Shown: positions 37,099-64,000 of the stretch, piece after piece
Layout: every line of letters starts with the position of its first letter
Numbering within the stretch: the stretch's first letter is position 1
NCBI GenBank assembly: GCA_022592435.1
Contig: JABYQS010000153.1
Location: 27,163 to 91,162 of the forward strand
Direction: 5' to 3'
Origin: Cerioporus squamosus
Taxonomy: Eukaryota; Basidiomycota; Agaricomycetes; Polyporales; Polyporaceae
DNA length: 64,000 nucleotides
Made by a program: the position numbers and the translations under genes
Notes under the pieces: generated by a model
What the model saw: the letters and a program-made list of their open reading frames with translations, nothing else
Database searches by the model: none
What the model was told of the DNA's origin: nothing

Positions 37099-37375
37099 TC
37101 AGTCCTCAGCGGGGAGCATGCGGTCGAGGATGTCCGCAGCGCCGTGGGCCTTAAGACAGCGGTTGTGGTGTGAGGAGATGGTGGTGACGATATCCCGGAA
37201 GCAGGAGAGGCAGTCAAACTGGACTGCGGCGTTGTGGATCTATAAGTCAGTCAAGCGGCGGCGGCGAAGTATGAACAAGGACGCACTCACCATACTGCCC
37301 AACGGATATAGTGCCTCCAGGATAACCATTGGCTTGTCGCTGTACTTGACGCGCCCTTGGGGGTCAAGTTGATCA
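37099..37375 (-). pseudogene. Orphan two-exon 3' gene fragment
   Basis: Two exon-like pieces join in frame across a gtgagt...tatag intron (37240-37290). They are VKYSDKPMVILEALYPLGSM, then IHNAAVQFDCLSCFRDIVTT and SHHNRCLKAHGAADILDRM with a TGA at 37099-37101. No start codon is visible: the open frame runs upstream into the last codons of the zinc-motif gene whose stop is at 37373. It looks like the 3' end of a gene whose 5' part was lost or replaced during cluster expansion. Family unknown. Confidence 0.35.
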
Positions 37376-38195
37376 CATATGGACACGGACCGCTTGCAAC
37401 GAATTGTTGACATGCAACACGAATAATATCACAATCTGCCAGACCCAGATCAGCAACGAATTTTCACGCAGGATTGAAGAACATACCAAGGCTATCGGGG
37501 CGAGGAACATTATGAGAAGAGGATGCAGAGGATCCGGCGCTGTTGAAACATCCCCGACAGGCCTTCGCTCATACGAGCCTCCTTGTCGCTCCCAATTTTG
37601 CCAGGCCAACCTTCGTCTCTCGTCCGCCTCTCGCGTCTCCTCCCGTAGTCGCTTCCGGCCCATGCCGCGCTTCCGTTCCAGCAGCTGCATCTCTCGGTCC
37701 CACGTCGATCGTCTGGTGGTCTTCAGAAGGTATCGTCGTTCCCGGAGTACTCCAAGAAGACGACCACAAGTGCTGATCTTGCTTGACAACGCTTCAGCGC
37801 GCCCCTGATGGGCGCCCTGGGTATCTGTCGACCTAGTCAGCCTCCACTTCGCTGCAAGGTACCTTGGGTTAAATATCACCATGCGTGGAGAAGCGTCTCC
37901 TGTGTGCACCACGGCGACTCTCTTCGTCTTGCAACGCCTCCACATAGCGCGTCGTAGCGTCAATCGCGGCCTCGATCTGGGCAAGGTCCTTCAGGGCTTG
38001 CATGTGGCCATCCGTAGTGACAGCCTCTCCTTCCTGGCGGCGGACGCGCGAAGCAGCGTCTCTGGACGCACTTGACGACTCGGCGACCTCTCTGAGATGT
38101 GTCCAGCAGAAGAGCGAGGAGGATGGATGCGCAGGTTTCGCGCAACGTGTTTCTTCGTCCGGCAGGCGTGCAGAGCACTGGCATATGACGACCAT
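37373..38195 (-). CDS. Zinc-motif cluster protein 1, with C-terminal membrane segments
   Basis: Two exons (37880-38195 and 37373-37824) give 255 residues. N-terminal motif: ICQCSARLPDEETRC then SLFCWTHLREV, that is C5/C7, C18, C30 and H33. A helical region to AHRRRFSTH follows, then the phase-1 intron shared by the cluster and DTQGAH in exon 2. A basic, coiled-coil-like stretch (RSTWDREMQLLERKRGMGR, RLREETREADERRRLAW) leads to two hydrophobic segments near the C-terminus, LLIMFLAPIALVCSSIL and LLIWVWQIVILFVL. It is probably anchored in a membrane with the zinc motif in the cytosol. The family is not recognised; the CCCH spacing recalls treble-clef-like DUF5763 motifs. Confidence 0.6.
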
Positions 38196-38606
38196 GGGAT
38201 GCTGGTGTTGGTGATTGGGAGAGGAGCAAGGTGGCCGGGAGAGGCGTAGGGCGATCGAGACAGGAGAGAAAACGAGCCCGTCGCATGTTGCACACGAGCA
38301 TGCGCCTATATGGACAGACGTATGCCACCGCGGTACATGACACATTACAGTCGGATGCTGCGGCACATGGCTCTCCATATGGCATGGTACTTACTCGATG
38401 TACGAGCCCTATGCGAGCAAAGCGACTGCAAGTGCACATGGTGGTAAATCGGTGAGCACATTGTGCATTCGAGACTCACTCCAATGGTCCGATACAATGG
38501 GCTGCAAATCTGAGGGAGGTAAACAGGCGGCGTGACGCTCTAGTAGATCCCGTCCGCAAGGCCGAGCCGTAGCTGAGGTGTATGAGCGATCAGCTGGCTA
38601 GACAAA

Positions 38607-39406
38607 TCATATAGATCTACACTGATGCCTCACCAGATGCTCCATAACAGAGGCGACGAAAGGATCCGTTGGGTCTACCTCGTCCTCGTGACCACTCGAA
38701 TCAACCTCTTTCTCCGAGACCGAAGGCTCAGGTTCCTGTCCGGAGTACCAGCGCAGCATCTCCTCTGCCTCTCTCTCCGTACGCAGGTCGGCGAGTACCT
38801 CTTCTTCGTCCATGCCCGAAGCAAGGGGCGATTCCTCGTCCTCCTCGACATACCCAAAGTCGATCGAGACGGCGCAGCAGGACAACTCCGATAGGGCACC
38901 CTCTTTCGCCTTTCTCCGTTGCCTTCGGCTCTTGCGCTTGCGTGGTTCCGGAGGCGTCAAGTCGAGGAGCCGAGTGCGAAGACGGTCACGGATCCTGTCC
39001 GCGGACGATATCTGCCTCCTTACATGGATTGTACGCTTGACATGGCCATCATCGGGAGGGTCTAGCGAGAGGCAAAGTCGTCGTCAGCGAGAGTTTGCGC
39101 CACATTGACCGCAACACTCTGCGTACCGTGGGCGAAGAATATCATAGTGTGGAGCTCTCTTCCTCGAAGCTCCTCGCTCGCATGTTGGATGTATGTCTCC
39201 GTCAACTCTATCGCGTCCTCGACCCCGACAAGGGTCCCCAGCTCGGCGATTTTGCCTTTGTCCTCCCAGACGAGGATGCATTCGCGGATGGCTTCGGCGG
39301 ATTCCGATGCCGCCTTGTACCGATTGTAAGACGCCTTGTAGTCTTCTGCATGCTCAAAGCAATAGTGAGGCCAGCCGTCTGGATGCACTTCTTCGCGACA
39401 AGGCAT
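38607..39406 (-). CDS. Zinc-motif cluster protein 2, first cysteine missing
   Basis: Two exons (39127-39406 and 38607-39061) give 244 residues. The N-terminus MPCREEVHPDGWPHYCFEHA keeps the second and third Cys and the His of the family motif. The first Cys is absent unless an upstream exon exists. Then come KASYNRYKAASESAEAIREC, TETYIQHASEELRGRELHTM and the shared phase-1 intron before DPPDDGHV. Exon 2 is basic (RKRKSRRQRRKAKE) and then acidic (EEDEESPLASGMDEEEVLAD). It has no transmembrane segment, unlike neighbours 1, 3, 4 and 5. It may be a diverged or soluble member. Confidence 0.55.
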
Positions 39407-39951
39407 GCCAAACTTCTCGGCGCGAAATGGTATGGGCGACGCCGACTTCGTATAGTAAGCTTGCCAGTGCGGCCTGGAGGCGTGGATGCGCGAAGCCATT
39501 CATGCGAGAGGCAGAAAGGGCATAGAGACAGTGCATGAGCTGTGTAGCCTGAAGTGCGCTCACACTCGCGGGATATCGAGTGGCGGGAGGAGGACAGGAT
39601 AGTGGCGAGGTGGGGTTGCAAGGCGGACACGCCGGGCCGAACTTCCGGGACACCTACGAGTTGTGAAACGGATTACGGAACCAAGAGGTACGCAATCCAA
39701 TACGGGTTGTTTGTCCGCACCGCAACGTACCTCACAATCTGGTACAGTGGTTGAGAGTGGTGCGACTCGAGGCATAAAAGCAGAAGAAGTCGCATATACT
39801 GGAGGATGACATGAGTAAGAGCGGGTTATGGACGCGTACGTATCTGCCAGCCTCAGTGTGGCATCACTCCGCGCGCAGGTTGTCCACCATGATATCTGAG
39901 CGGAAAGCGGTGAGTATCCCATAAGTCAAAGAGAAGAAACACATACCGAGC

Positions 39952-41851
39952 TTACGGTTGCCAATACAGGCGGCGTGTCAAAGTCCTACTCGCAGCCCGA
40001 GCGCAGAGCTTCCGGAGGATGCGCCAGCTCTTGGACACCGTCCCTGGGCGCGATAGGACGCCACCTATCAAGAGCCCAAGGACCTATATTCGCAGGACGT
40101 CAGTTTTGATAGCTTCAAGGTCGAGTTATTCAGCTCACCAAGCATGCGATCCTCCGGACCACCTCCCGGCGGAGACGACGCGTAGGCCTGCTGGCGTCGT
40201 CGTCGCCAGTCCCTTGTCGTTCTAGGTCGGAGTTCCAAGGGCAAGCACCATAGTTGGGCGTGCCAGTATGGGCCTCTATCGACGCAAGCGAGACATCGGG
40301 ACCGCCTACGGTCGTGCGGCAGATGCCAGGTCCTTCTCGTCCCTCCTCCCCTGTGGTGCGGATGGACGCCATTGCGCTCTTGATGAACGGGGACCCTGGG
40401 TCTGCCGAGCTCGCGACGAGGTCATCTGGTGCTGTACCCGCGGTTACTGGTTCCGCCGCAATTGTCTGTCCGACATCAACGTCCGAAGCTCCGACACCAA
40501 TATCGTCCTCCCTGTGGACCGCGGTCTGTAGGTCGATAATCTCGATGTGCAGCTCATTACACGTGTCTTCAGCAGGTTCCTCCACTGCGGGCGCATCCTG
40601 AGAACGATCCTGTGGTGAGACTGGGCTGCCGCCGTCTAGAAGGCTCGCTCCTGTCTGTGCTAAGAGCTGCGAAGGAAATAGATGAGCCGTCGATTATGGC
40701 GCTGCATATGGAACAAGCATGCGCAGACCGACTTGCACAACACTCACAGGTGGCATGGTCATACGGCGAGTCTGGACGAGGTCTTTGGGTCCTGACACGG
40801 CTGAGACTTGCTGCTCACGATGCTCGTCTGCCGATGGTGGTTCCGTGGATCGATCCGGGATATGCTGCAAGGAGGGGAGATGATGGAGCGCGTGGACAGG
40901 TAGACATGTGTCCTTGTCCTCGCTGACGTCCTCGGCACCGCCTCTCTCCTCTCCGACCTCCTCACTTTCAAGTTGCGACCCAGCCTGACTGCTGCCGGGT
41001 GGGTCGAGCGAAGCGTTTGGCATCTCCACGTTGCTTGCTCTCACCTCCACCTCAGATTTTGCCAGTGCGCTGCGTATGTGATTCTGGAAGCTCTCCTCCT
41101 CGATGAGCTCGCGTGTCCGTTTGCCTCGATGACCACGACGTGTTGCCGCTCGCGCTCCTTCGACAGGCGCTTGCGAGCCGCAGCTCTGGATTGCGCTCCC
41201 CGCTCTTCATCCCCTCTGCGACGATTGCGGTGCCGCGGACTACGCGACGACGAGCCGGCCTCGGAGGCGGGTGGTTGTTCGGGGAGAATGGCACTGCGTG
41301 CTCTACACGGCTGCCCGCGCGAGTTACGCTCGAGACGGCCGCGTCTGGATCGCAGCATATGGATGATGTCTCTGCTGTGTTCGAGCTGCTGCTCGATCTT
41401 CTGCAGCCTCGTCCGATGACCCTCGTCCGCTATATGCGCGCGCATCGCACGTCCAGCACCACGCATTCAGTGTCCCGAGCACGAGAAGGACTGAACACTG
41501 AAGGCACTCACGTTCTCCGACAAACGTCCAATCATGCTCCTTCCGCAAGAGCTTCTCCCGCTCCAGCGCATCTATGTATGCGCCGATGTCCACGATCCGA
41601 TCCTCCACCTCCGCGCGGCCCAGCTGACCGACCTCGCTGCGCTTGAGGCGTGCGGAAGCACTCAGCGCCCTGGCGTCGTTCGCAGCATCCTTGTATCTCT
41701 CGTGGCTCTCTTCGTACGCTTGTATGTGAGCCTTGCAGACGTGTCTTCTGGCAATTGGGGCATTGCATCGTGTGTGGACGTCTACAAGACGTTGACAGAG
41801 GCGAGGCGAGGACCTCGGTATTTCCGTGGTCGCAGAGTGTGAGGCTGGCAT
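39952..41851 (-). CDS. Zinc-motif cluster protein 3, long form with membrane tail
   Basis: The start MPASHSATTEIPRSSPR precedes CQRLVDVHTRC and HVCKAHIQAYEES (C19, C29, C39, H42). Next are YKDAANDARALSASARLKRS and IDALEREKLLRKEHDWTFVG, the phase-1 intron, and PDEGHRTRLQKIEQQLEHSR. A long basic then acidic low-complexity middle follows (RKRLSKERERQ; ELIEEESFQNHIRSALAKSE; EEVGEERGGAEDVSEDKD). After another intron comes DVDVGQTIAAEPVTAG, and the tail RIACLVLGLLIGGVLSRPG is a good transmembrane helix followed by a basic end. One change of frame near 41110-41140 needs an unrecognised intron or a frameshift. The stop at 39952 is provisional; more exons could lie at 39730-39920. Confidence 0.5.
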
Positions 41852-42286
41852 CTAGACAGTTGCAAGAGGATACAGGGGACCATGATAGTTGGGGAAGAGC
41901 TGCGTGTCGCGGTCGTCCTCGACTCCTCGTTGAATAAGGTTCGTTATGACAGCGCTTAGTGTGGTTACGCATTAGGGAGAGGGAATACTGTACCACTTCA
42001 CCGGCCGTGCGTTGCTCTGCCCTGCTCGTACGAGTCCTCGGATACGCTGTTACGACGACTCGTTGAAGCGATCCCTCGATAGTTACAGAATATGAATACA
42101 TGGCTCGTGCCTTCGAGACAACGAGATTATCGTCCTCGGCCGGAGCATCAGCATACAGCGGTGGACTCACAGTACGCAGATCAATGCACGAAGTGCACGA
42201 CGTCGGTCACCCTGAAGGATAGAGGATACCCATGAGTGGCTGCCTAGCACGGGAGGAAAAAACCAATACTTGCCGCTCACTGGTCC

Positions 42287-43667
42287 TCAAGCCTCAGGCA
42301 ATGGTCCCATTTCGTCGTCAACCTGTTTCGCGATGGCCTCCTCGTCCTCGCCGTGGTCGCCAAAGGCGCGAAGGTGGGTGTGCCAGTGCTGCTGAACGAG
42401 TCCCACAGCGACCGCGTCTCCTCGGCTACCTTCTTGACCTCCTTCGGGGACTGCCCATCCATTGTCGCGCACAGCGAGGAAGTCGTAGCGGGCCCGAAAC
42501 TTCTTTAGCAGCGCGATGCTGTCTGCGCGCAGCTTCTCGAGCGAGGCGAGGCGTTCGTTATGGCGTTCGTTTCCTGCGCGAAGTGGGGTGAGCTCAACCA
42601 AACGATACGCAGGCATGGGCCAGCCGACATACCTTCTCCGAAGAACTTCGCGTTGTGCTTGCGCCGCCAGTGCGCCTCCTGGTCCATGACGTACCACATA
42701 ATCATGTTCACGGCGGCTTGGACGTGTCCACGTTGGTCGAGCAGGTGTGCGTTGGATCTCCGACGCGACGACGAGCGACCTGCCCATGATTGCCACCTCC
42801 TCGGCGGCGCGATGGTACTTGCAGATGGGAGACACGCGTGGGCGGAGGTCCGACGCGACGACGCCCCGTAGCCCCTCACAAGGGCGTCCTCAGACTCTGT
42901 ACGAGAACATTGGTCAAGGTGACTTCAAAGCGCATCAGCGTGACGATGTACGTACCACTTTGAGATACTCCCAGTCGTACCACCAGAACAACTCGGGCTT
43001 GTAGTCTCCGAAAGTCATGGCCTGCTGGACGATGTCAGCGACGTACTGTACGCCGCCGACATCCTCCATCTCCAGGCATCTCTCCCCGACGTTGTAGTTG
43101 TTGTAGAGAGCGAACATCCATTGCCAGTCGTTAGCGAAGGGGCGTACCCACTCGAGCACAATGCCCGCCCGCTTAGACAAGTCCTCGTGAACGAGAGAGC
43201 GGGTGAGACCCCTGAGCGAGTCCATAAGCTCCTCGTTCCGCTTCTGCTCCTCGGTCAGTTCGCCGTACTTGATGATGGATACCCCAGCCTGCTCTGGCAA
43301 CCACTCGTCGTCGGACGCGTCCAACACAAGATTGTAGTGCGTGGCATAGTCCCATAGGAACTCTCGCGAATAGACCCAGCCATAGGCGAGCCGCGGGGGG
43401 TTGCCCCCCCGGCTCGCAAGCATACGTCTCTTGATCGTCTTGCGTGGTCCGAAGATGCTGTCCAATCTCCGCCATTTCTGCGCAAAGTGTCAGTATCGGT
43501 GACATGAACGACGAAGTAAGCATGCGCACCGCCTCTTGTGCTGCCTTCGCGCGATCTGTGAACTTGGCACTCCTGCCATCGGTGTCGAACTGCATCCTCC
43601 CCTTCTCGTCGAGGTCGAACTCGAAGAGATACTGGTCGTCCGGGTGCGGCTCAGTTCTGTAAGACAT
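42287..43667 (-). CDS. Unknown protein interrupting the zinc-motif cluster
   Basis: The start MSYRTEPHPDDQYLFEFDLD continues as GRSAKFTDRAKAAQEAVRML. A large exon (about 42935-43465) has RLDSIFGPRKTIKRRMLASR, YGWVYSREFLWDYATHYNLV, SIIKYGELTEEQKRNEELMD, SLVHEDLSKRAGIVLEWVRP, NDWQWMFALYNNYNVGERC and DIVQQAMTFGDYKPELFWWY. Later exons give AAVNMIMWYVMDQEAHWRRK, HNERLASLEKLRADSIAL and an acidic C-terminus GEDEEAIAKQVDDEMGPLPEA. Four or five exons are implied. No signal, membrane segment or known domain. The tryptophan-rich core and clean splice sites suggest a functional gene, but I do not recognise the family. Confidence 0.55.
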
Positions 43668-44098
43668 GGAGGGTAGTTGGCGTCCAAGCGAGGATGGCTC
43701 TCTTTAGCAAGGAATGGGTAATTGGGTGACGGTGGTGGGCTTGGAGTACATAAGTACTGAGTCGTATTGACTTCGCGTTGACCGGGGCCGCGTTCAGATA
43801 ACGTTCGTCGTTCAGAGCCGAAGAACAGAAAGTAGCCACGACGACATGATGACGGTGAAGGGCAATCCAAGGAGACGCCCAGCCTCGCTCTTCTACCACG
43901 ACCACGACATCCTCCGGAAACTCTTCAAGGGCCACCATCAACTCGCTCGAATTTCGAGCTTCATTTGCTCCCCGAAACACTTGCGCGTAGAGAAAGCCTG
44001 AGCGTGCAAACTCTACTTGCCCATGCACTTGTCGGTCAACCTGAATGGAGTATCACACGTGAGGATCTGTTCGTTCAAATATGCATAGTACATCGAGC

Positions 44099-45294
44099 TC
44101 ACCGCATGATTGTATCCTTGTTGCGTACGCCCAGAAATAATGCAATTCCAACCACTGTGCAGACCTAAGTACTCGGGAGCGTACAGCCATGCTCAGCACT
44201 AAATCGACGACATACCGAGGAATACTAGTATGAACTCACCAGCGCGACCCTCCCCACTGTCTCCAACCCCCTTGACCCGCTGCCATCCGACCCTCCTGCC
44301 GGTGCGGTCTCCACGCGCAGAGACGTAGTCCGCTCTTCCTCCTTCTTCGACTCCTCCGCGGCCTTCTTCCTCCTGTACTCGTTGAGCACCTTGATCTGGT
44401 GCTTGACCTGCTCGCGCCGTCTCTCCGCCTCCTCAGCAGTTTCCTCCCTTGACGACGCTTGAGCCCTGAGGAGGGTGGCCTTCTGACTCGTTACCTTGAC
44501 CGCGGTCAGCCATGTCTTCGTTGTGGGTCGGCTGTCTGTCGGCTTCCGGCACCGACTCGGGCTCCTCATCGCATATCGCTTCTACTGCTCCAGACGGCAC
44601 CTCGTCCTCGCGCTGAGCCGTGCTTCCCTCCTCTCGTGTCTCCTCGCGGTGTTCCTGTTCAGCGTCGACTTGCTGGTTTCTGTCACCTTGCACCATCTTC
44701 TCAGACCTCCGCTCTTCCAGCTGTGTCTCCTCCATCCGTAGCTCGTTCTCCCGCCCATCCTGCATCGATATCGCTGCCCGGTACTTGTCTTCGGCTTTTT
44801 TCCGTTCTTCTTCGATCACAACTCCGCGCTCTCGAATCCTCTGCAGCAGGTTTGCGACATCTGTCCTCCTTCGGCCGAGTTCGCTCAACGCCTCTGTCGC
44901 ACGATGCTCCGCTACGTCCGCCCCAAAGTCCGTCAAGTTGAGGACTCATACTGCAGACTCGAGATGGACACCCACGTTCGGTGAAGAACCGTCTACTCAG
45001 CATCATGCGCGTCTCGACTCGATCGTCCAATACCTGCAAGTAACGCTCCAGATCTCCTATGTCCCGCTGTACGGCCTCGTCGGTCGTGTAGGTGGCGACA
45101 TCTCGAGCGAGGAGCGCGTCAATGGAAGTATTGAGGTCCTGCACGTCCCCTGCTGCAGCCCGTCCACGAACCGCCAGGGCCTGGTACTCGGCGTTGTGGG
45201 CTGGGCAGAATGCTTCGTTTCGTGCGACCTCGAGGTTGCAGCGTGCGTCTCGCTTGGAGTGGAGGCGCGCTTGGCAGTTGCGGAGGTGAACCAT
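44099..45294 (-). CDS. Zinc-motif cluster protein 4, with C-terminal transmembrane tail
   Basis: The start MVHLRNCQARLHSKRDARC and AFCPAHNAEYQAL give C7, C19, C30 and H33. DIGDLERYLQVLDDRVETRM and LSRRFFTE end exon 1 (to about 44985). The phase-1 intron is followed by PEHRATEALSELGRRR and a strongly charged coiled coil (RERGVVIEEERKKAEDKYRA; ENELRMEETQLEERRSEKMV; EAERRREQVKHQIKVLNEYR). The last exon, joined from the donor at about 44239, encodes RVALVCTVVGIALFLGV then RNKDTIMR and TGA at 44099. This is a single transmembrane helix with a short basic tail, like a tail-anchored protein. A 37-nt intron (about 44460) lies inside the coiled coil. Confidence 0.6.
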
Positions 45295-45724
45295 CGTGCA
45301 GTAGTTGCGAGTTCGAGCGAATGTCGCAATGGGTAGTGGACTCTGGGAGGGGAGGACGGAGGAGAGGCCCAGAGGGCTCTTCTGCAGCGCCGTGAATGCG
45401 TGGGGGCTGCATGTACTTACGGTTCTTTCGAATGAAGACGATCATCGTGGTGGCCATGGTGCTTCCTTCGGTATAGGCCGACATCGTATAGCTGTGCTGC
45501 GGTAGCCTCTGGAATGCCTAGCTCAGGATTACGTTCTTCGGGCCAAACGACTACGTCCAAACCACATTACATATCGGCAATACAGACGAACGAAGTACAA
45601 CGCGGGCTGTTGGCCCGCTCAAGGTAGTCGGACAGTGCCCTGGATTAACGCGGGTGCCGTCAAGTCAACCTCAACCACCTGGCGCGAGTTCTTTCGCCCA
45701 GGACCAACTTCATGCCCGATTCTA

Positions 45725-46414
45725 CTACCCTGAGCAGCCTCTCATGTCCTCTCGCTCTCGAGTGAAGCGCAAGCCGAGCGTAACCATCGCGCCAATCAGG
45801 ATACTCCTGCCCCACGACATCCCAAAGCATGCTCCAACACCGGATGCAACCGCGCCCTGGAACACGACGAAGCCACCGTCGGTCCTAAGTACGTCTTCCG
45901 ACCATGCCCAGGACACTCACTAACAACGCCTCTCCGTAGAGTTCATCCTTCTCCTCTTCGGCGAGCACAGAGTCCAGAACTTGCTTCACCAGAGTGCGTT
46001 GCGACTTCAAGTGGGCCACTTTATCCGCATGTTCCGCAGGGGCTGCAGGGTACGACGCGATGTCAGTCGCCAACCGGCCGGCTTGAACGTAGGTATGTAG
46101 GAATGTCGCGTACCCTTGCACTGGAACAGCCGCTGATGGGCTTCCACCACCTGGAGCTCCTCGTCGAGAGCGGCGAGATAGCTGCGGACGTCCGGTATGG
46201 CGTCCCTAGGGGAGGCCCGGCCCAACCTGATCTTCTGCATGGTCGCGTCGGTCTTGGCATGAGACTCTTCTGCGGCTTGCGTGACCTGGTCCAGCTGCAG
46301 GGCCGCAACGCGGTGGTCTTCGCGATGCACGCGGCAGAACTTCTCGGGCCTCCGGGCGGGCGCGGCGCAACGCGTTTCTTCATCGTATGCGAGATGAGCT
46401 GCGCAACGAACCAT
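45725..46414 (-). CDS. Zinc-motif cluster protein 5, with C-terminal hydrophobic segment
   Basis: MVRCAAHLAYDEETRC and KFCRVHREDHRVA give C4, C16, C27 and H30. QLDQVTQAAEESHAKTDATM and DVRSYLAALDEELQVVEAHQ lead to RLFQCK and the shared phase-1 intron. Exon 2 begins APAEHADKVAHLKSQRTLVK and ends ELYGEALL. A third exon, after a short intron, encodes TDGGFVVFQGAVASGVGACF and RSILIGAMVTLGLRF, then a basic end REREDMRGCSG. The hydrophobic third exon is the probable membrane anchor. The start at 46414 is the only ATG that places the first Cys at position 4 as in its neighbours. Confidence 0.6.
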
Positions 46415-46503
46415 GATGGCATCGTACAGCGGAAATGTATCCTTTCTGAAACGGAGTGGCTGACTGGTGAGCGACCACGCATTTGTTCCCCGGAAGAGAG
46501 TGC

Positions 46504-47108
46504 TCACTGCTCTCGGATCATCTTGTTCACTCGCACTTGCGCCTGCTGAATCTGCTTCTGTAGTTCTATCTCCTGCTCCCGTTCTTCTGGTGTCTGCCGC
46601 TTCTTGTTCTCTTCCTCCGCCAACAGGTATTGCTTATAGCTTTCGACGTTGGCCGCAATCGCGAGCGCGACGAGCCGCTTATCCCGCAGATCCTTCACGC
46701 GCTCCGCATGAGCAGTGGCTGTTGCGAGCATAGCATATAGACGCGATCGTGAGTTCGATGCCTCATCTCAGTCAAGATGCAAGACCACGTACGTTCGACG
46801 AAGAACCGCCTCTGATGCTCCTGCGTCCCCTGGATCGCCCTCTCAAGGGACTTCGCATAGGCGTTCATCGTCTCCTCCATCTTGCCCACCTCCTCCACAT
46901 TCCGAGTTCTTGTGAAGCCGCCCTGCACAGCACCTTTGGCCAGTATCTCCAGCTTGTCGACCTCCTCCACCGCCGTCTTATCTGCGTCCATCTGTCTCCG
47001 GTACTCCAAAGCGTGCTCGTGGCAGCACAGCTCGTCAGGCGGCCGCTGGTTCTTGCATCGCGTCCGCTGTCCGTTCTCCCCAGTAATCTGAGCGCGACAC
47101 TGCTGCAT
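46504..47108 (-). CDS. Zinc-motif cluster protein 6, soluble form
   Basis: MQQCRAQITGENGQRTRC and ELCCHEHALEYRR give C4, C18, C29 and H32. EEVDKLEILAKGAVQGGFTR, KMEETMNAYAKSLERAI and GTQEHQRRFFVE end exon 1. The phase-1 intron precedes PTAHAERVKDLRDKRLVALA and a coiled coil (YKQYLLAEEENKKRQTPEER; EQEIELQKQIQQAQVRVNKM) ending at TGA 46504. No membrane segment fits in the 90 bases before the next gene's ATG, so this copy seems to lack the tail. It is the clearest minimal member: zinc motif, helix, conserved intron, coiled coil. Confidence 0.65.
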
Positions 47109-47629
47109 GAACGAGAGAGTGATAGATGGGCGTCGATGGGGATGGTCGCTATAAAGGTCGGGTTGCCCTGCTTCCCGAGGCATGCGCGTCGGTCTGATTA
47201 GGTTTACGTAGACAGAAAGGGAACGATTCCCCCGCAGATCCACATGGAATGGCCACTGCCGCTTAGGGAAGTCGAAGACAAGAGCTCAGGTCTGAGACCA
47301 GGTCTGTCGGGTCGTCCTCGAGCCTTCGTCCGCGTCCTGGTGTGTGTATACTTGTCACAAAGTTGTCGTTGCAATATCCAGTGAGGTCTTACTGTGGGTT
47401 GCGTGACCCTGCAGGTCAACGATGCAGAAGCTACCGAGGACAAAGCGGGAATTTCCTGACATCGGTCACCAGGCTGTATGTCCGCGTGAGCTGCGTCAGC
47501 GTACTTTCCGTGGTTCAGAGACTGATCACGACTCATTTGGCTCGCGCAAATGTCTTTGTCTCGGTACTTTTGTCATTCAGTCTTCAGGTTATTAGCACAT
47601 GACGGCGCGAAGGTCACCAACAAGCGTGC

Positions 47630-48881
47630 TCAAGTTGTCGTGTCGGTCCCAAGAAACGAGTCGTTGCCATCCGAGAACTGGGGTGATCTACAAGCATCCT
47701 GATTGGATACAGGCATCATCAGCACAACATGCAACTGTCTCCGCGGGACTTCATTGGGGGAGGGGGGGGGGGCAACGTACTCGAGTATATGCGCCCGCCA
47801 CGGAAGGCGTCGACACCACATTCCCTCACTCCTACCACAGCTTAGAAACTCGAAGTCAGCCGTTGAAGTGCATGTGGAAGATGTACTGGAACTTACCCAG
47901 CGCAGCAGTCCGCTTGTCAGGGTTGGACGCAGCTCCTCACTGCACACCAATCTCTCAGCCCTAGCTCGCTCCTCTCTCGCGTCAGCCAAGTTCTCTGCGT
48001 AACCGCAAATCCGCTTAGCAAAGCTGCAGAACCAGACACAATAGATTAAGTACTGACCTGTGCATCCAAACTGTCGGTTGTGCATCTCGCCTTCCATAAT
48101 CACTTTATCCAGGTAGTATATCTGGTTGCGCAAGAACATCAACACGTCCTCCTTGGCGCTTACACATGCGTAGTTCCCGAATTCCTCTCTTGCCAAGTTT
48201 CGATAGCGCGCAATCTCCGAGAGCGATTCCTGATGCTGGGACTGGTGTGAGAAGCAGAACGGCTGCCCTGGTATGACTGGAACGAGGCAGCGAGAGCCGC
48301 ATCCTGCAGATTCCTTGAAGGCGCGGCACCTCCCAGTATACTGCGACGCCCTGCGGAAGCTTGCTATGAATATTCTCCCGACTATATGCGAGATATGCGA
48401 CTGACCTTTCGTGCTCGAGTTGCCTCAAAACCTCCTTTCTGACCTCCACCTTCGTCAGGAATGCAAGAGCGGCCTCTCGCTTCTCTCCGAGCGCAGAGAC
48501 AGACATTCGCACTTGAGCAATTGTCACTCACAGATCCTGCTTGAGAAGCATAGATAAGGGCGTACCGTCACCAGGGAACCGACTGCGACACTCCTCCATC
48601 GCGCGTATCGCTCTATCCAGACGCTCCGCATAGGCCTTCACCACGGCGGTAGCCGTATAGATCTCCTCGAGGTCGCAGCATTCCGTCACGGCCATGTCAT
48701 GCATCATCTTCGACACCAGGATCTCTAGCGCCTCCGCCTCTGCTGTCGCTCTTCCATAGCCATCGACAAGTCGGGTAGCATCTGCATTGTGCACTTCGCA
48801 GAGCCCGTCCTCCTCGACCGCTCTCTGGCAGCGTCCTTGGCTAGCGTGCGGTCCGAGGGTACTGGCTTGACACTGAGGCAT
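47630..48881 (-). CDS. Zinc-motif cluster protein 7, two tandem modules
   Basis: The first module starts MPQCQASTLGPHASQGRC with GLCEVHNADATRL (C4, C18, C28, H31). It continues as VVKAYAERLDRAIRAMEECR and the phase-1 intron, then VRMSVSALGEKREAALAFLT and KVEVRKEVLRQLEHE. A further intron (gtcagt...ccgcag) leads in frame into a second module, CRAFKESAGCGSRC with PFCFSHQSQHQESL, then MFLRNQIYYLDKVIMEGEMH. This second module has no start codon of its own, which supports a fused gene. A last intron precedes ENLADAREERARAERLV. The C-terminal end (to 47630) is of low confidence because the final frame is unusual in composition and holds a run of C residues. Confidence 0.5.
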
Positions 48882-50060
48882 GGTGATGAGGCAGCAAGGG
48901 TGCGAGGAGAGGAGATGCGGACTGGAGCGTAAGTATTCTCGGAGAACAACACGGTGGAGGAGACCAACCTTCGCACGGTTGGTGCCACTGAGCTTCGTCC
49001 GACCTCTCAGCGCAATGATAAGGTTTGTAGAACCGCATTGCCACCTGCAGCGCGTTCGGGCATCCCTCCTGCCATTCTCATCGGCTTCCCTCAAAGACTC
49101 GCGAGCACGTCTCTGGGTTACCGGCCAGCAGCCAAGCATGTCAAGGAGGAGTCCGACTTTCGTGTTTGTTCCCGCCCTTGTGACGTGTCAGATGGAGATA
49201 TACGGCCAACCTAACGGCGAAGGTTTCCTCGTGGGTCTGAGGGAGGACCGCTTCTGATGCATCCCTCTCGATGCCGCACGATGGCAAGTGTCGATACCGC
49301 AGCCACAAATCGTGCTCCTAGTCCTGCTGTCTATGTTTCTAGGTTACTTCCGTGCGCGCTTAACGCGGATGGTACACTCACCTCCAACAAGTCGCGCCAA
49401 GCCCGCGTTCACTCAGCGTCATTCTGATGCGCCTCTGTCAAGCTGGGAATGTATACAGTGTACCTGACCTTTAAGGACCTTTTGACTTAGCGACGAAAAA
49501 ATACAATCGCGACGCTAGACGAACCGCTCACCACTTTCGCATGGGATCTGCGCAGCCGTTATGACGTTCATTGACGGGACCGTGGCTTCAGAAGATACGA
49601 GACATAGTCCGCAAGCAAGTGAACACTACCCCCATTCTGCGGACCACATACTTTAGGAGGTTACTTGGCGAGCGCCGCGCGACCAGCCCGATTACGAGCT
49701 AATCCCGGATGCGGAGTTGATACGCCGCGAAAAGAAACGTGCACCCTTCAAAGCCTCGGTATGATAGCGGTCATCATGGTCTGTGTCGCGCTGGCATACT
49801 GCAAAAGATATCCTATCACGAAAGCATCGTCTCTGTGACATGGGAATCCACGGGAGCTCATTCAGTAGTACCAGTCGTCCAGTCATACCAAGAGCCGCTC
49901 ACCGATCCATGCTACTGGTGCTTGCGGTCCGACCCAGCGATCGGCGTGGTAAAGTGTATAGCAACAATAGTGATACAAAAGTAAATGCTGCTAGAGAAGA
50001 CATCAGACGACTCACTTCGGCGCGATACAATGGTAGGGACTCACCAATCCATGGTACATC
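48882..50060. other. Intergenic region, no gene recognised
   Basis: About 1.2 kb between the upstream end of the cluster and SNF8. The frames present (for example 49692-49886) have no motif in common with the cluster. The sequence around 49430-49700 is AT-richer. Confidence 0.45.
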
Positions 50061-50816
50061 CTACTCGTCCCATCGCATCGCGGAGGGCACCCAATATGAT
50101 ACACCGTACTCCTCGTCCTGATCGTCTAGCCAGCAAAGCCCGTCCCTGAGGAGCATGTTGCTGAGTGCTGTTCGCGCACGCTCTTCTGTCCATCCTCTCC
50201 GTGCCACCAACGCCTGCTCCGAGACGCGCCCGCCGTCTTCCTGCGCAACAGCAAGCACGACCGCCTGGTCCGCATCGAGCTCCCTCGGCACGCTCCGCAC
50301 CATCTTCTTCCCGCCACCGACGTCGATGACCTCGTACCCTGCAGAGAGCGGCTTGAGGGTCTTGATGCTCCGCATAACGTCGTCCTCGGTGATGACGTCC
50401 CCGCCCACCCCGCGCAGCTTGCTCACCAGCCGTATGAGCTCGCCCATCTCAATCAGCCCTCCGTTCCGCTCCCGGGTGCTCACGCAGACGTCGACGATCT
50501 GCACCCCGAGCTCGTACTGCCAGTCGCCGAGGTTGAGCATCTCCGCCCACCAGCCACCTTTGCGCGGGCCGGCGAGCGGGTCGACGCCGATGGTCGTGCA
50601 CATCTGCTGGAAAGCATGACGGAAGGAGGGCTCCTGGCGGATGCGCTCGCGGTGCGTGGAGGCATAGTGTGCGAGTGCGCTGCGGAACTGGGCGAGCTGG
50701 GCGTGGAGGAGGTCGACTTGGGCTTGGGAGATCTCGGTAGAGAGCTCGGCGAAGGAGCGCTTGGATTGCTCCTGTCGGTCGAACGCGGCAATGCCAACGC
50801 CCCCGAGTCTACGCAT
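50061..50816 (-). CDS. snf8: ESCRT-II subunit SNF8/VPS22 (EAP30)
   Basis: An intronless 251-residue protein, full length for the family. MRRLGGVGIAAFDRQEQSKR and the following helix SKRSFAELSTEISQAQVDLL form the N-terminal coil. AHYASTHRERIRQEPSFRHA, FQQMCTTIGVDPLAGPRKGG and WWAEMLNLGDWQYELGVQIV form the first winged helix. RNGGLIEMGELIRLVSKLRG, SIKTLKPLSAGYEVIDVGGG and LSNMLLRDGLCWLDDQDEEY form the second. It sorts ubiquitinated membrane cargo into multivesicular bodies with VPS25 and VPS36. The start at 50816 was chosen because upstream in-frame sequence to 51212 is not family-like and belongs to the neighbouring cluster gene. It is probably the only housekeeping gene within the cluster. 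Confidence 0.95.
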   Translation of the reverse strand: MRRLGGVGIAAFDRQEQSKRSFAELSTEISQAQVDLLHAQLAQFRSALAHYASTHRERIRQEPSFRHAFQQMCTTIGVDPLAGPRKGGWWAEMLNLGDWQYELGVQIVDVCVSTRERNGGLIEMGELIRLVSKLRGVGGDVITEDDVMRSIKTLKPLSAGYEVIDVGGGKKMVRSVPRELDADQAVVLAVAQEDGGRVSEQALVARRGWTEERARTALSNMLLRDGLCWLDDQDEEYGVSYWVPSAMRWDE

Positions 50817-51084
50817 GTTGCAGGTCGCAGCGTACTGGTTCAGAGGAGGTAGTTTCAAGGCATGAGTTCGTGAGTGGTCGTCACCGAGATTCCTCCGAAT
50901 CGCAAGCTCACAGCGCCAGAAGACCCCTCCAGATAGGATAGACGCGCGTAATATCCAGATCTCTTCGTGTCCGGCGACCTGCAGCTTGGGTGCGTTCAGA
51001 ATCACAATGGTCACAACCTGGCTACAAAGTGTTGAGTTGGGCGACAGAATATCCGGTGACAGCAGTGCGCTAGCGGTGTTCCCA

Positions 51085-51593
51085 TCACCAATTGATATCA
51101 TCGTCCAAAAGCTCCATCTCTCTGCTCTCGACGCGGTACAAGAACTCGATTGCCCTCTCCCGCCTATACTTGAGTGTCTCGAGGTACTCCAGGTGTGCTC
51201 CATCCACTGCAAGCCGTATCAGCGCAGGCTCGCCACAGCCAGAGATAGAGCAGGCCAGCGGTGAAACTGCTAACCTTGCGTGAAGAACCGCTTGTGGTGC
51301 TCCTCCCGTCCCTTGACAGCCCTCTCCAAGCAGTCGAGGTACGCCCTCGAGATCTCCGCGACATGCGCGAGATCCTCCTGCGCGAGACCCTCCACATGCT
51401 TTACTCCCAGGCGGACGAACGCGTCCTCCAGCGTGTCCATCTCCAGCGTCGCCTTCTTGTACGTGTCGGTGTGCCGCACGTAGAGCTGATGGTGCTCTTT
51501 GCAGTAGTGTGTCCCGGCAGGAGGGACCCTCCTGCACTGCTTCTGGCGGCCGTCGATCTGTGTAACTGGAGCCCAGCAGCGCGGTTTCCCCAT
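51085..51593 (-). CDS. Zinc-motif cluster protein 8, short soluble form
   Basis: MGKPRCWAPVTQIDGRQKQC and THYCKEHHQLYVRH give C6, C20, C31 and H34. KKATLEMDTLEDAFVRLGVK, ISRAYLDCLERAVKGREEHH and KRFFTQ end exon 1. The phase-1 intron (gttagc...ttgcag) precedes DGAHLEYLETLKYRRERAIE and FLYRVESREMELLDDDINW with TGA. It gives about 147 residues and no membrane segment. A weak donor at the stop codon (ttggtgatgg) could instead extend it into 50900-51030. It is separated from the other members by SNF8 but has the same strand, motif and intron. Confidence 0.62.
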
Positions 51594-51903: not shown

Positions 51904-53070
51904 TCAAGTAGCCCGCGCGACATTTCCCGGCTGGTACGCCGCCTGCGCATCCCCAAAGCACCTGCCCGCCTGGTGGGCCAGGTGGCGCAAGTACGCGTCC
52001 TTCCTGCTGAACGTGCGCCGGCACCCGCCCACCATCCAGAGTCCCTCGAACTCCCGCGCCGGCTGCTGGTTCAGGATGTCCGCTGGCACCCCGTGCTCCG
52101 CCGCCTCATGGAGGGGCACCCCGCAGCAGAGGTAGAGCGCCTTCGTGGTGTTGCCCTTGTGCGTCGCGATGTGCCGCCTGAAGTCAGGCCCGCGGCGGTT
52201 CCACTGGACGAACTCGCAGTGGGGGCACTTCCAGCGGCTCATGCTGTTGCGGGCGACCGGAGCCTCCGCGACGGGTGCGGTGGCCTCGGGAGCAGTCTCG
52301 GCGGGCGTGGCGACTTGCACGTTGCGCCGCTTCATCGAGCTAAAGCCCGGCACGATGGGTGCGGATTGAGCAGGAGGACGCCGCGTAATGGGGGGAGGGG
52401 AGGCGGAGGCGGATTCGCGACGGAGAGCACGCCTAGCGCGAATCGCGCGATCGGGGCCGATCGTAGTCGATGCTTCCACGTACTCGAATGAAGGCTTGTG
52501 CAGGTCCGCAGGCGCGACGCACGCCGGGGCGAGTGGCGCATATCCGCGATTGTCATGGTAGGAGCGGAAAGCGAGGGCCACGTAATCCTCATAGTTCGAG
52601 ATATCTTCGACGAGGTGAGCTCGGGCATTCCCAATCTGGTAGACGGGCTCCTCGAGGTAGTCGAAGTTCAGGGAACTGAGGAGGTGGCAGAGGGCAAGGT
52701 CGTCATCGGTAGGGTGTGGCTTGCCAGTGGCGAGGTTGAGCTCGGCGCCTGCAGGCACGAGCGACCTTGAGGCGTCTGCCATCTCGAGCGACAAACTGGA
52801 AACGCCATCCATGAGATCGGAGTCACTCATAAAGCGTAGAATCGACGTTACTCACTAGTTGCTCGAGAGTTCCGCCTCGATGTCCATTAGATCTTGCCGT
52901 ACTGCAGCGGCAGTGGAGGGGCTGCTGGCCTCGATGAAGTCGCAGAGAGGGTGCGCCTCTCGCTCTGGGGTGGTCTCGTACTGTCCCTCGACATTCCAGT
53001 ACTCCATCACAGGCTCAATGGCGCAGTATGGGGTGGTATAAGGCACCTCGAAGTGCTGGGGGGTGGCCAT
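51904..53070 (-). CDS. C2H2 zinc-finger protein
   Basis: Exon 1 (52856-53070, MATPQHFEVPYTTPYCAIE) joins in frame through a 30-nt intron (gtgagt...atgag) to exon 2, giving 378 residues. If that intron is not real, the gene starts at 52830 (MSDSDLMDGVSSLSLEMAD). A disordered middle is followed by two C-terminal finger-like units. One is WKCPHCEFVQWNRRGPDFRR with HIATH; the other is GGCRRTFSRKDAYLRHLAHQ with AGRC, which has a C/H arrangement like a degenerate finger. A cysteine-containing loop LYLCCGVPLHEAAEHGVP lies between them. This layout recurs in basidiomycete C2H2 proteins of unknown target; a nuclear DNA-binding role is likely. Confidence 0.72.
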
Positions 53071-58100: not shown

Positions 58101-58427
58101 ATGTCGGACCTGCGTGGCTGGGCAGGAGTCTGATCTAGCCGGTTCCAGATAATCGTGAGCGTGCACGATCGCCTCGCCTGGAACACGTTCCCGCTGAACA
58201 AGCTGGAGAAGGAATTCAACGGGATTCATATTGGCCTGTAACCCAGATGAGGTCAGTAATCCCCGCTCCAAGAGAGTTTGGCCCCCACCGCCGTCGTGGT
58301 CCGAGTGTCCCACCCGGGAGGTATAAGTATCTTTATCTCTCTCGGCGTTCCACCCTTTTGTCTGTGCTGACACTGTACTTCCATCACTGCTTTATACTCC
58401 TCCTCTGGCTTTGTCCCCGACCTATTC
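55116..58427. other. 3.3-kb region with no recognised gene
   Basis: The longest stretch outside the retroelement without an assigned gene. Frames of 60-200 codons occur on both strands (for example 56010-56630 minus, 57780-58373 minus), but they lack known motifs, mirror each other's GC-rich composition and do not chain through splice sites. The region may hold the long 5' leader of the serine-rich gene at 58428. An inverted pair around 57440-57480 (cggccggacacccgcgcgagtgtccg) is a local hairpin. Confidence 0.5.
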
Positions 58428-59999
58428 ATGACAGAGTACGCCACCGACCCAGAGACCATCCAAGAGTACCTCAACTCGCGCGACCGATGCGCGAACTGGG
58501 TCAACATCCACTCCCAAGGGCTGAGCTACGTCTCGCCCTCCTCGCCACCGTCCATCCTGAGCGACGATGACCCGCCATTGTCTGGCTCGAGCGTTTCCGA
58601 CGCGGCGAGCTCGCACTCTGTGCCACCCCGCATGCTCCTGCGCTACGGCGACGGTCGAGGAGACATACCGATCTCCCATGACTCCTCGCCGACACACAGT
58701 CGCGGCCAACCGCCATCCTCCCGCCACCGATCCCGATCTGGATCGCAAATCCCGCCTGCGCCTGCACCTGCAGACATGCGCCACCACCCCGCTCGCTATG
58801 CGCAGACGTTGTCGTATGCATCGGGTTCGCGGTACGCACCGACCGGCGCGCCAGAAAACATCCGCGTCCTGCCGTCGCGGCAGGCAGAAGATTCTCAGCG
58901 CATGCCGGCGTCTACCTCATCGTCGCATCGCTCTCGTGCACCCCCCGCACAGGCCATCTTCCACCCGCCGCAACCCTCGATCCACGATAGAGTTCCTCCC
59001 CTTGCAGATCCCCTTCACACGTCCAGGCGCAGTATCCATGCGCCCACGCCGAGACATGCGACCAGTTCCTCCGCACAACCCATCCCCGTCATCGCTTCTC
59101 CGACGCATTCCCAGCCTGCTCCCGGCGGTTCTCGATTCTACGAGCAGCCCGGAATGGCTGCGTCGACGATGCAGAACGGGCTTCCGTACACCTACGCACC
59201 GCCCGCGATCGTCTATGCCCCGTCTGGGCGGCACGGGTCCAAGTACCAGCCCCCCGCGATCGTCTACTCTCCTTCGTCGCACGGGCATCGCCGCGCTCCC
59301 GCACCAGGAATAGCGTACAGTCGGTCCGATCCCCTCCCACATCCCACCCAGTACTCTCCTGTTAACTCCACGGGTACGCCCTACCCGTCTGGCCACGGCT
59401 CGACCTCGCGCCCGCGTGCGCATAGTACCGCGGGACACGAGCAGGGCCGGGGACGGACTCACGTTGACATGTCCTCCTCGTCCCGATCGCGGACACGCAC
59501 ACGCACGCCCTCGCTCAGCCCAAGCGACAGCGACACGTCCAGCGACACCTCTGGAAGCACCTACTACGTCCTCCCCTCGCCCGGCCAAAAGGTCCAGATC
59601 ATCGTGAGTGGTCTATCTCCCGATCTCTCCAGCGTGGTCCAGGGCTACTGCGCGCTGTCCGATCTCGCTCTCTTGCTTGCTTCTCAGCCCTGATCCCAAG
59701 CCACGATTTACCGCATGTCTTTCATTCTGCTTATCGCGCACACGGAGATTGCTGACACTCGCCGTCTCGGTCGTGCTGCGCAGGTGCCGAACTCGGCGTC
59801 GGTATACACGTCGAAGCCCCAGTCGTCGTCGCGGTCGCCCCACTCGCCGTCGTCCCCGCAGAGCCCGAAGAAACCGTTCTTGGCCAGGATATTCAGCCGC
59901 GGCTCGGGTTCGGTGGATTCGCGCGGCTCCAGCGGGGGTAAGCGGTTACATCGCAGACATACTGTCGGAGGCACTCACCTCTCGTCAAGTTCGCGCTGA
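58428..59999 (+). CDS. Serine/proline-rich disordered protein
   Basis: Two exons (58428-59603 and 59784-59999; gtgagt donor, gcgcag acceptor) give 463 residues. The start MTEYATDPETIQEYLNS has a short ordered helix and RCANWVNIHSQGLSYVSPSS. The rest is low-complexity S/P/R/H with near repeats (PPAIVYAPSG; PPAIVYSPSS) and a short conserved-looking patch GSTYYVLPSPGQKVQII ending exon 1. The C-terminus reads PKKPFLARIFSRGSGS then KRLHRRHTVGGTHLSSSSR. Such proteins are common in agaricomycetes and are often called hypothetical. A nuclear or cytoplasmic regulatory role is possible, but nothing visible assigns one. Confidence 0.7.
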
Positions 60000-61640
60000 G
60001 CGGGCACGCATCCCTGTCCCGTGGAGATAGTTGGCGTCGCCCACCGTGAGTTCTGCTGCCTCGTTGCTGTGGCGCGCTCGCGCTAACTCGGATGCTTTGT
60101 CCCTTCAGCGCGCCCGGGTGGATCTGGTGCTGAACTCTACTCTACAGTACCAGCAGCATCCGTCTTCTGACGCGGACACGCCATGGCGTCAGCATTCTTG
60201 TGACACTCCCCAGTACTACTACTGGGAGGATTTCTCGTCTGGATTTGCCTCAGCTGTTCACGTTACATCCATCGCACGTTCTTTGTCTTCGCGCCCATGT
60301 TACCCCGTTTCGCATCTGTATCGCATCATCCTACACCACTCCTTCATCTCGCATCGGGTTCTGGTTCTGGGACTGTGTTGCATCACCTCATCACCTACCT
60401 CATCGGAAGTCTATTCTCCGCCCATGTATAACGTTTGTACTGTTACGAAACGCTCCCGTAGACGTACCCTTCCCGTGTAATACACACCATCATCCCTGAT
60501 ACACACTGACAAGACGTTCAGGAAGCAAACTCTGGCTGGCTCTCACCACCACCACCACCACCACCACCACCGTCATCTTTATGTAAAACGCAGCATGCGG
60601 GCATCAAACGCTGCACACTGACTTCCCGACGAGAGCGAACGCGAGGCTGCCAGGGCGCAGGGTGTCCGGCGACCCGGGCCCTGCTCAGCCTCCTGCCCAG
60701 CTTCCGACCAGGGGTCGCGCGACTTCCCAAAGCAGGCCGATGTGTGCCCTCGTAATGTGACCGAGAAGACGCACAGCTTCAAGTTGCGCGGACAGTACCC
60801 TGCCGAGGACCTAAAGCACACAACGCGGCGTCGGATGTGTACGCGGATATGCGCATGCGCTTGCCACTCCCGTTAGGCTTTAGCTCTTCCTGCGCATCAG
60901 AACATGCAGCGTTCACCGAGAACACGGCGCTGCAGAGTGCGTCGTCATCTGGGCGATAGCGAGGTCAGAGGCGTTCAGCTGAGGTCCTGAGGAAGACCTT
61001 CCTTCCTGTAAGAGGCATGGAGGTTACGCGACTGTGGAGTACTTAGTCGGACGCGGTTGGAGCCTGAGGCGGACGTGATAGGAAACCCAAGCGCTGCGCT
61101 TGCGCTCCATGTTCACGCTCCCGAGAAGGCTGTTCATGGAGCTCGCTGCATCCGCCAGTAGAGAGACGTACCGTGGCCGACGCCAGCGGGTACTATTCTT
61201 GCGGGCGGTGAACGGTAAGCACATAGGCGGCCTGACGGAATCATATGAGTAGGGTCGGACGACTCCCGAGCGAGCTCCATGGCGCGCTTTGGGAGGCGGC
61301 TGGGGGAGTGATGGATGAACGGGACATGGACAGCAATTCCACTGCCATCCCGTCCCGATGATTTGACGAATGGACTTATCGTTCGTGTAACATCAGGAAC
61401 GTTTGCCATGAGGCGGCAACGTACGTTGATGTCTCCCGAGTGCGCCATGTTGTCTCTCGAGCAACAATATAGGCATAGCGCACGAAATGCCTGTGTGATT
61501 CTCCCTTATTCAGTTACAATACTGCTATCGCAGCAAATAAATTGGCGGAGCGGAAATCGAGTGAGATACGGGAGTCGATAACGTACAAGCAAAGGCAGCA
61601 CTCCAAGCTTGAAGCGGCGCATCCATCCCACTGCTCCTCG
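60000..61640. other. Intergenic region with microsatellite, no gene recognised
   Basis: 1.6 kb between convergent genes. The first 500 bases look like the 3' untranslated region of the serine-rich gene. The remainder holds only short frames. Confidence 0.5.
60545..60573 (+). repeat. (CAC)n microsatellite
   Basis: Nine uninterrupted cac units. Useful as a polymorphic marker; no coding context. Confidence 0.85.
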
Positions 61641-63628
61641 CTAGTTCTCTCCCCACACCATGTGAGCCACGTCCCTGACCAGCTTGAGCTTCTTCACCAT
61701 GTCCTGCCAGGTAACAACGTCCGAGCCCGAGCGCAGCGTCAGCCGGAGACAACACAGAGAACGACCGCGCAACTTGACCCCGTACCTCGTGCGTGACAAA
61801 CGCAAACCCGCGCGAGTGAGACGCGAAGCCACACTGGGGACTCAGGCTGAGCCTGCGGGTTGTCATGGGATTGTCAGCGTGGAGCGACAAACACCGAGCA
61901 GCGAGCACCACCGCGCCAGATGGAGCGGTGTGTAGCGACTGCGATACGGGACGCGCGAGACGAACGTACTGATTCAGCGCCTCCTCCTTTGTTCTCGGGA
62001 TCTCCCCGTGTGCGATCACCTCCGCCGCCTGCAAGATACGCCTGCGCAGCTCGTCCGGGTCTTCGAGCTATGTATATGGTGCGTTGTGGGTCCACGGCGC
62101 GCCCAGTCAGCCACAGGAGCCGAGCGGTCATGGCCGCACGAAGAAGGGACGCACCACAGGGGTCTTTGTGGACACCAGTCCGAGAACGACCCTCTTGTCC
62201 GGCGGGAGGTCGCGGAGGGGCGCGAAGCTGCCGGCTTCTTCGGTGTCGTACTCGAGCTGACGGGGCCGTAGGGACCCGAGGTTAGTCAAGGGGAGCAGAA
62301 GGTGGGACAGCGCTAGCGGAGACGCACGTAGTAGCAGTCGAAGTTGAGGGTAGTCAGCAGCTTGCGCGCGATGTGGTCATATGGCCCGTGGGTGAAGCGC
62401 GAGCCGTCGGGCTGACGAGGGCAGAGGTATCAGACGAGTCATGAAATGGCACTAGGGGTTCGGGATTGGCTGACCTTGACGTTCCCGCGACATATGTGCA
62501 ACCCGATCGTCATACCTCGGGGCTTGTCGCGCAGACAGTCGTTGTAGACGTCGAGGTACAGTTGGAACAGTTGTTCCGGGTCTACGCCAGCCTGCTCCAT
62601 GCGCCGCCTCCACTCTCCGTCGCAGAAGCAAGAAAGGACAGGGTCGTCGATCTGCAACCTTCCTTCCGGGCGCAAGAGGTAGTATTAGGTTTGAGAGTAA
62701 GAGAATCACATTCTAGCGGACTTACGGCATCCCCGGGCGTATAGGTCGCTGATCTCTTCTCTATATATCCTCGATACATCTGCGAAGTAATCGACTACAT
62801 AGAGACGCGCATCAGAGTTGAGCAGTCGTAGGGTTGTCATGTCTGGCGGACGCACCATCATTCGTGTACGCGCTTGGTTCGTACGTGTATTTCCCGTGAC
62901 GAAAGTGGTACCATTCAGGTGCACCGATGGTCAACTTGATCTTCCCCACGTTCTACAGCATCGTGGTCAGACCGAATGGAGACCTGGATGAACCTTCAGG
63001 CGTCATATGTGCGTACTTGCGATCCAGCGACCTTCTTCATATGTTCGAACGAGTCTCCATACAATGATGACATCCGCCGCAACCTCTCCTTTAGATATCC
63101 CAATCAGCATCCGTGAGCGATGTAGGTGTGGATAGAGCGTACCACGCATACATGCGTCACAGGCCACGATTGCACGAAGTTGAAGGCTGTGTAGTACGTT
63201 GAGCGTTCCAGAGGAGTCAAGAAGGTCAGGGATCACCTGGAACATGTACTGGGGAGCTACGGTCCCGAGTTCTGGGTTCAGTACCACGACACTCGCCAGC
63301 TATATCGATGACACACACCGTCGGGAACATCTTTTAAGCCACTCAGCTTGTCGTAGAATCCAGTATAGAAGAGTGTCTCTAGATGTCTCTGGACGTCAGC
63401 GAAGCAGCGAAGACGGCCGAGCGGGAGTTGATACTCGCCTTCGAAACTCTCCGTCGGTAATCACGTCGAAGTCCATGTCGAGTTGCAGCCGGACAATCTC
63501 CGCAATGCAGACATCTTCGCAGGCCCGAAGCTCCCCAGCGGTACATTTGCCATTTGATAGTCGGACCTCTTCTGCAAGGGATGTCGGACGTTTGAGGAGC
63601 CAATGTGTTCTGCGCGGGGTACAGACAT
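61641..63628 (-). CDS. MetE-like methyltransferase-fold protein with N-terminal frameshift
   Basis: A cobalamin-independent methionine synthase C-terminal-like barrel (UROD/MetE family). ATG at 63628 starts MSVPRAEHIGS; the next family segment LLKRPTSLAEEVRLSNGKCT is one base out of frame. IVRLQLDMDFDVITDGEFRR, then KIKLTIGAPEWYHFRHGKY, VDYFADVSRIYREEISDLYA, RGCRKIQIDDPVLSCFCDGE, EQLFQLYLDVYNDCLRDKPR, MTIGLHICRGNVK and, at the end, LSPQCGFASHSRGFAF with KLKLVRDVAHMVWGEN keep the zinc and substrate motifs (H and C of HICRGN, C of PQCGF). About eight introns. Either the frameshift inactivates it, or translation starts at 63689 in the other frame (MAKEYRLRIP), losing RAEHIGS. The fungal homologues have no proven substrate. 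Confidence 0.75.
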
Positions 63629-64000
63629 AGGGATGGAAAACACAGAGGCCGGGGCGGGAGGGTATTCTGAGTCTATATTCTTTGGCCACCGGTTAGATAA
63701 CCGGTCAGCAACGGAGGTCCTGGCGGAGAGCGGTTCCCGCTGCCGAACATCATGGAGGCAGGCCATAGGATGGATCGAAGGAGATACGGCGGCCGAATGG
63801 GCGCAGTCACAGGGCCGGAAGTGCGACTCGATAGTGGCGTTTTTCAGCGCCGTTGAATAGAGTACAGCGAGCACCGGATCGCAGCCGCACGGGAGCAATG
63901 TTGGGTGCAGTTTAGGCCCGAAAGAGCTCCAAAGGGTAAATGAATACTGAGAGCGCGAGCTGGCAAGGCTTGGAGACGATCCCGGGCAGGGCCTGGGTGG
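63629..64000. other. Right edge, no gene recognised
   Basis: 370 bases upstream of the MetE-like start. Frames continue in both directions but show no motif. This is presumably its promoter. Confidence 0.4.

Follow-up and report, generated by a model that had tools for sequence, protein, structure and literature searches.

The 64,000-nucleotide stretch of Cerioporus squamosus DNA analysed here (the window; positions 27163-91162 of contig C61 in a genome of 54 Mb and 988 contigs) had been predicted to carry a tandem cluster of genes on one strand, each beginning with a C-C-C-H (C3H) motif. This raises the questions of whether the modules form one family, whether that family already has a name, and what its products might do.

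The C3H modules and their gene structure

All six frames of the 64 kb were scanned with the pattern C-x(8-14)-C-x(7-13)-C-x2-H, which returned 12 rows at 11 places. Of these places, eight are minus-strand modules, all inside 38097-51578. The other three (14398, 14481 and 21302) have a stop codon shortly downstream of the motif and were taken as chance matches, and the reversed 64-kb sequence, scanned on both strands as a control, gave no match to the motif. The tandem arrangement on one strand is thus borne out: the cluster runs along the minus strand at 37.4-51.6 kb and comprises eight full modules, with the spacing C-x(9-13)-C-x(9-11)-C-x2-H, and a ninth, w39, that lacks the first Cys (Table 1). 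The last of these, in the gene at 38607, had been called partial and is a real module apart from the missing residue. Copies beyond the window have a wider spacing, for example C-x7-C in c2. A genome-wide DNA pattern gave 115/93 against 106/99 for its control, and is uninformative since its spacing was wrong for the C3H family.

Table 1. C3H modules of the window. Every row is supported by a leave-one-out profile, the shared donor and a hand-spliced model; further evidence is given in the last column.
Module	Position	Strand	Exons and remarks	Further evidence
w38	37373..38195	-	module exon 37880-38195; exon 2 37373-37824, acceptor picked by hand	motif scan
w39	38607..39409	-	module exon 39127-39409, without first Cys; exon 2 38607-39061	profile search
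w41	41041..41803	-	module exon 41512-41803; exon 2 41041-41429; 3' end uncertain	motif scan
w45	44433..45294	-	module exon 44976-45294; exon 2 44433-44893; 3' end uncertain	motif scan
w46	45725..46414	-	exons 46114-46414, 45921-46042, 45725-45856	motif scan, AlphaFold2
w47	46504..47108	-	exons 46793-47108, 46504-46718	motif scan
w48	47630..48334	-	module exon 48058-48334; exon 2 47630-47994	motif scan
w49	48105..48881	-	module exon 48566-48881; exon 2 within 48105-48511	motif scan
w51	51085..51593	-	exons 51275-51593, 51085-51206; 146 aa	motif scan, protein search, tree, AlphaFold2 of P0001

Gene models were spliced by hand for 18 copies, with c4, d2 and f1 left out. The gene coordinates given in the original prediction are the low (3') ends on the minus strand; six of the eight (37373, 38607, 45725, 46504, 47630 and 51085) equal the stops of our models, while 39952 and 44099 were not reproduced, the models there stopping at 41041 and 44433. 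A gene with two modules at 47630, w49 followed by w48, had also been proposed. This is plausible, as a phase-2 GT...AG join is legible by eye, and w48 is probably the second module of a single gene with w49; the w49 model in Table 1 overlaps w48 because this join was left out of it.

The copies share an intron position. In 18 of the 19 copies that carry a conserved Phe (f1 is outside this count), a phase-1 GT donor is placed at exactly 13 nt from the first base of the Phe codon; in d3 the donor is one codon off, and d2 has no Phe. Exon 2 brings a further helix common to the copies. The original prediction had noted neither this intron nor the common helical part, nor the copies on other contigs. 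A second intron, whose splice sites, acceptors included, were set by eye, is in phase 0 in all six hand-spliced cases (w46, c1, c3, c5, d3 and d4).

Profiles built with each copy left out in turn recovered all 20 copies tested, at 27.6 (w48) to 78.2 bits, against a best background or shuffle score of 13.1 in any run. These copies were the nine of the window (w38, w39, w41, w45-w49 and w51), nine on contig C133 (c1-c5 and d1-d4) and two on C118/C274 (e1 and e2); for the close pairs c4/w47 and c5/w46 the partner was withheld as well. A profile of the other copies had in part served to find those beyond the window, for which the test is therefore not wholly independent. With f1, at 23.6 kb on C61 and with a sister on C948, we count 21 loci, leaving out weak genome matches on C674 (inspected, no module), C44, C157 and C944 and degenerate sequence at L044:575-1033 (E 2.0). 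By our count the module is open and retains all four ligands at 16 of the 21 loci. The other five are broken or lack a ligand: w39 has no first Cys, c1 has a TAG stop within its CxxH, c4 combines a His-to-Cys change with a break in the frame, d2 is interrupted by a stop on C133, and f1 has its frame broken on C61 and an Arg in place of the His on C948. For d2 and f1 the open state differs between sister contigs.

Protein searches, which depend on exact shared words, detected three relatives: P0001 of Lentinus tigrinus, P0002 of L. brumalis, and P0003, the last on a 2.1 kb contig. Over the module, P0003 is 75% identical to w46. In the tree w51 groups with the Lentinus proteins (99/98), P0001 and P0002 being its orthologues in two Lentinus species, and w46 groups with P0003 (91/95), c5 joining them next (90/86). 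Other groups are w49 with c2 (99/98), w48 with c3 (95/82) and w39 with e1 and e2 (95/93). Of the 20 inner branches, eight stay open, and long branches lead to w41 and w45.

Comparison with named families

None of the nine window modules reached a Pfam cut-off, Pfam matched none of P0001-P0003 at E up to 1, and NCBIfam returned scattered weak matches to 10 families, each in at most two of 17 members. The expectation of a strongly diverged, locally expanded family with a common layout holds, as does the expectation that it has no name, no known single-copy family being matched in the libraries searched; no entry listed by our literature searches names it. It is well shown that the family is real, that it is larger than originally thought and that it is unnamed in these libraries.

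Three families with related motifs were considered and rejected. The zf-C3Hc3H family (PF13891) has a C3H cluster, in common with the modules, but at a gathering score of 27 bits it was absent from the nine modules even at E up to 10, and no match fell at a family locus. A link to DUF5763 (PF19067), suggested by the original prediction, found no support. The likeness lies in the short C...C...CxxH layout, with weak partial matches in w49 (15.1 bits, the best of the nine) and w48 (7.8 bits) against a gathering score of 26.3; however, DUF5763 is a 39-position model without a helical bundle, and a genome search with it gave three places, none at the family loci. For the WRC domain (PF08879) the best module, w51, scored 7.1 bits against a gathering score of 28.6, and a genome search gave no match at the family loci. 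PMC7380329 gives the WRC C3H spacing as CX9CX10CX2H, so the first two gaps of WRC and barley HRT fall in the family's range; unlike these, the family head runs on into long helices and has no common basic charge. Matches to TbsP_N on the d1 frame (21.4 of 27.1 bits) and to TrmB on a w45 tail frame, like those in NCBIfam, were put down to coiled-coil chance.

Genomic arrangement and selection

The first 5.7 kb of C133 (1-5712) match window positions 58328-64000, the end of C61, on the same strand at 96.7% identity, and c2-c5 occur on C133 in mirrored order relative to w49-w46. The overlap and the mirrored order together suggest that the cluster has an inverted and diverged counterpart beyond the window, joined to it through the C61/C133 overlap. 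We rejected the reading of C133 as an allele of the window cluster because, outside the overlap, only the mirrored cluster stretches match window DNA. The sister stretches C133/C547 (98.1-98.7%), C118/C274 (99.2%) and C61/C948 (97.7%) are very alike, and we read them as haplotypes.

Past the overlap, C133 also carries a stretch that resembles, at 71% over 321 nt, a C2H2-type frame in the window. This frame, at 51907-52851 on the minus strand, is a weak zinc-finger match (21.2 of 27 bits), and its partial copy lies by the mirrored cluster. Other frames on C133 match an HMG-box (L050:8638-9999), DUF4246 (L045:2698-4092, between d1 and d2) and a tnp2-type transposase (L052:8003-10000). A LINE-type retrotransposon occupies 18453-23552 on the plus strand of the window as a single 1700-aa frame with endonuclease, reverse transcriptase and RNase H matches, and Copia-type retrotransposon frames (L047:5609-9998) adjoin e1 on C118. 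A Pfam scan of 38 flanking frames, most of them without any match, detected no HET, NLR or mating-type domain.

Between paralogues, dN/dS (Nei-Gojobori) was 0.34 for c5/w46, 0.43 and 0.45 for two pieces of c4/w47, 0.26 for c2/w49 and 0.28 for e1/e2, at dS values of 0.52 to 1.96 that are partly near saturation. Between sister contigs, modules d1, d3, d4 and e1 together have four synonymous and four non-synonymous changes. Substitutions in d1, d3 and d4 number 4 in 921 nt (0.43%) against 76 in 7719 nt outside (0.98%; p 0.14), and f1, with 3 in 279 nt against 21 in 1486, shows no excess over its flanks. Two modules exceed their flanks: e1, with 4 in 316 nt (1.27%) against 23 in 5672 (0.41%), and d2, with 6 in 303 nt. 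On small counts from one individual, these comparisons favour past constraint over hypervariable alleles for most of the loci compared, with e1 and d2 pointing the opposite way.

Predicted structure and possible function

Structure prediction gave a short-strand hairpin and a helical bundle for two distant members (pLDDT 88 and 94). The AlphaFold2 model of P0001 (ten sequences, chain alone; mean pLDDT 88.3) has two short strands followed by helices 32-63, 72-102 and 109-141, and that of w46 exon 1 (eleven sequences, chain alone; pLDDT 93.6) has strands and helices 28-63 and 69-97. Fold searches (PDB, viral models and VIA-align) returned generic bundles only, and the lack of a closer match is uninformative; the likeness of the head to three-helix bundles such as the spectrin repeat, MIT, Habc and the cytosolic part of CorA is a generic one. 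The best hit of a PDB sequence search was a designed protein, at E 0.47.

Behind the head, the hand-spliced models have no tail or a short one, a charged coil (long and in exon 2 in w45), an acidic tail (with EMLRWYS common to w39 and e1) or a membrane-type segment. The last, defined as KD19 of at least 2.0 reached in no more than 1 of 200 shuffles, is present in five of the 18 models (w38, c1, c3, d3 and d4). Its end is no more than five residues from the C-terminus in c1, c3 and d4, so that a single hydrophobic segment near the C-terminus, as in tail anchors, is seen in three of 18 (c3, d4 and the tail of c1, a copy whose head has a stop). In w38 (KD19 2.08, reached by 1 of 200 shuffles) and d3 the segment lies further in. 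The other 13 models have no significant hydrophobic segment, including w46 (57 of 200 shuffles) and w49 (49 of 200). The charge of the first 36 residues ranges from -4 to +6 over 23 rows and does not suggest a common nucleic-acid face.

We tentatively favour an adaptor-type family, lineage-restricted and under birth and death, whose members combine a conserved zinc-helical head with tails that vary. In its favour are the leave-one-out profiles, the shared donor, the similar models of P0001 and w46, the membrane-type segments, the wide range of N-terminal charge, the paralogue dN/dS of 0.26-0.45 and the Lentinus orthologues of w51. The incomplete independence of the profile test, the splice sites set by eye, the stop in the head of c1, the 13 models with no significant hydrophobic segment and the generic outcome of the fold searches weigh against it. 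Its members would have multiplied by tandem duplication and by the inverted block copy. The C3H cluster with which each copy begins is predicted to bind zinc and would cap the long helical bundle, and the head may be a protein-interaction or oligomerisation module. The products could be cytosolic adaptors, some of them tethered to an internal membrane by a C-terminal segment, with w51 perhaps retaining an older role amid the turnover of the other copies. A bolder version, in which the zinc-capped heads pair with one another and the set of copies in a strain, with interchangeable tails of which some are membrane-anchored and others soluble, serves an internal membrane as combinatorial sensor or adaptor, seems to us a long shot.

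A use of the C3H cluster in binding nucleic acid, by analogy with plant WRC and HRT proteins, is doubtful. The spacing given in PMC7380329 resembles that of the family and the N-terminus is basic in w51 and d3 (+4 each) and c4 (+6), but the WRC cut-off was not reached, the charge falls to -4 elsewhere, and five of 18 models have membrane-type tails. We hold it to be equally improbable that this is a recognition, incompatibility or defence family acting in non-self contact, with diversity kept by selection. Tandem growth, strong divergence, differing tails (some membrane-type) and the varying open state of d2 and f1 would fit such a role. The fast divergence originally predicted on these grounds is nevertheless not supported so far, given dN/dS of 0.26-0.45, sister copies of d1, d3, d4 and f1 without excess over their flanks (though e1 and d2 are higher), and flanking frames free of HET, NLR and mating-type matches in Pfam. 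Somewhat less unlikely is a near-dispensable orphan family, amplified and lost in transposon-rich surroundings and with little function besides w51. Neutral decay of all copies, which the original prediction had named, together with lack of expression, as the outcome opposing its own, is contradicted by the dN/dS between old paralogues, yet the 21 loci include five that are broken or short of a ligand. Dispensability would also fit the nearby LINE, Copia and tnp2-type elements, the p of only 0.14 for d1, d3 and d4 and the excess in e1; the 16 open four-ligand modules and the 75% identity of w46 to P0003 argue against it.

The family offers a head predicted with confidence, a gene structure conserved among the copies, a copy with orthologues in two named Lentinus species and a natural series of tails. 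Lineage-specific families are frequent in mushroom genomes and seldom described, and the zinc-helical domain would be an addition to the family libraries. The copy with the Lentinus orthologues, w51, adjoins a gene of the EAP30/Vps36 family (50064-51218, minus strand; 186.5 bits), which we take to be SNF8/VPS22.
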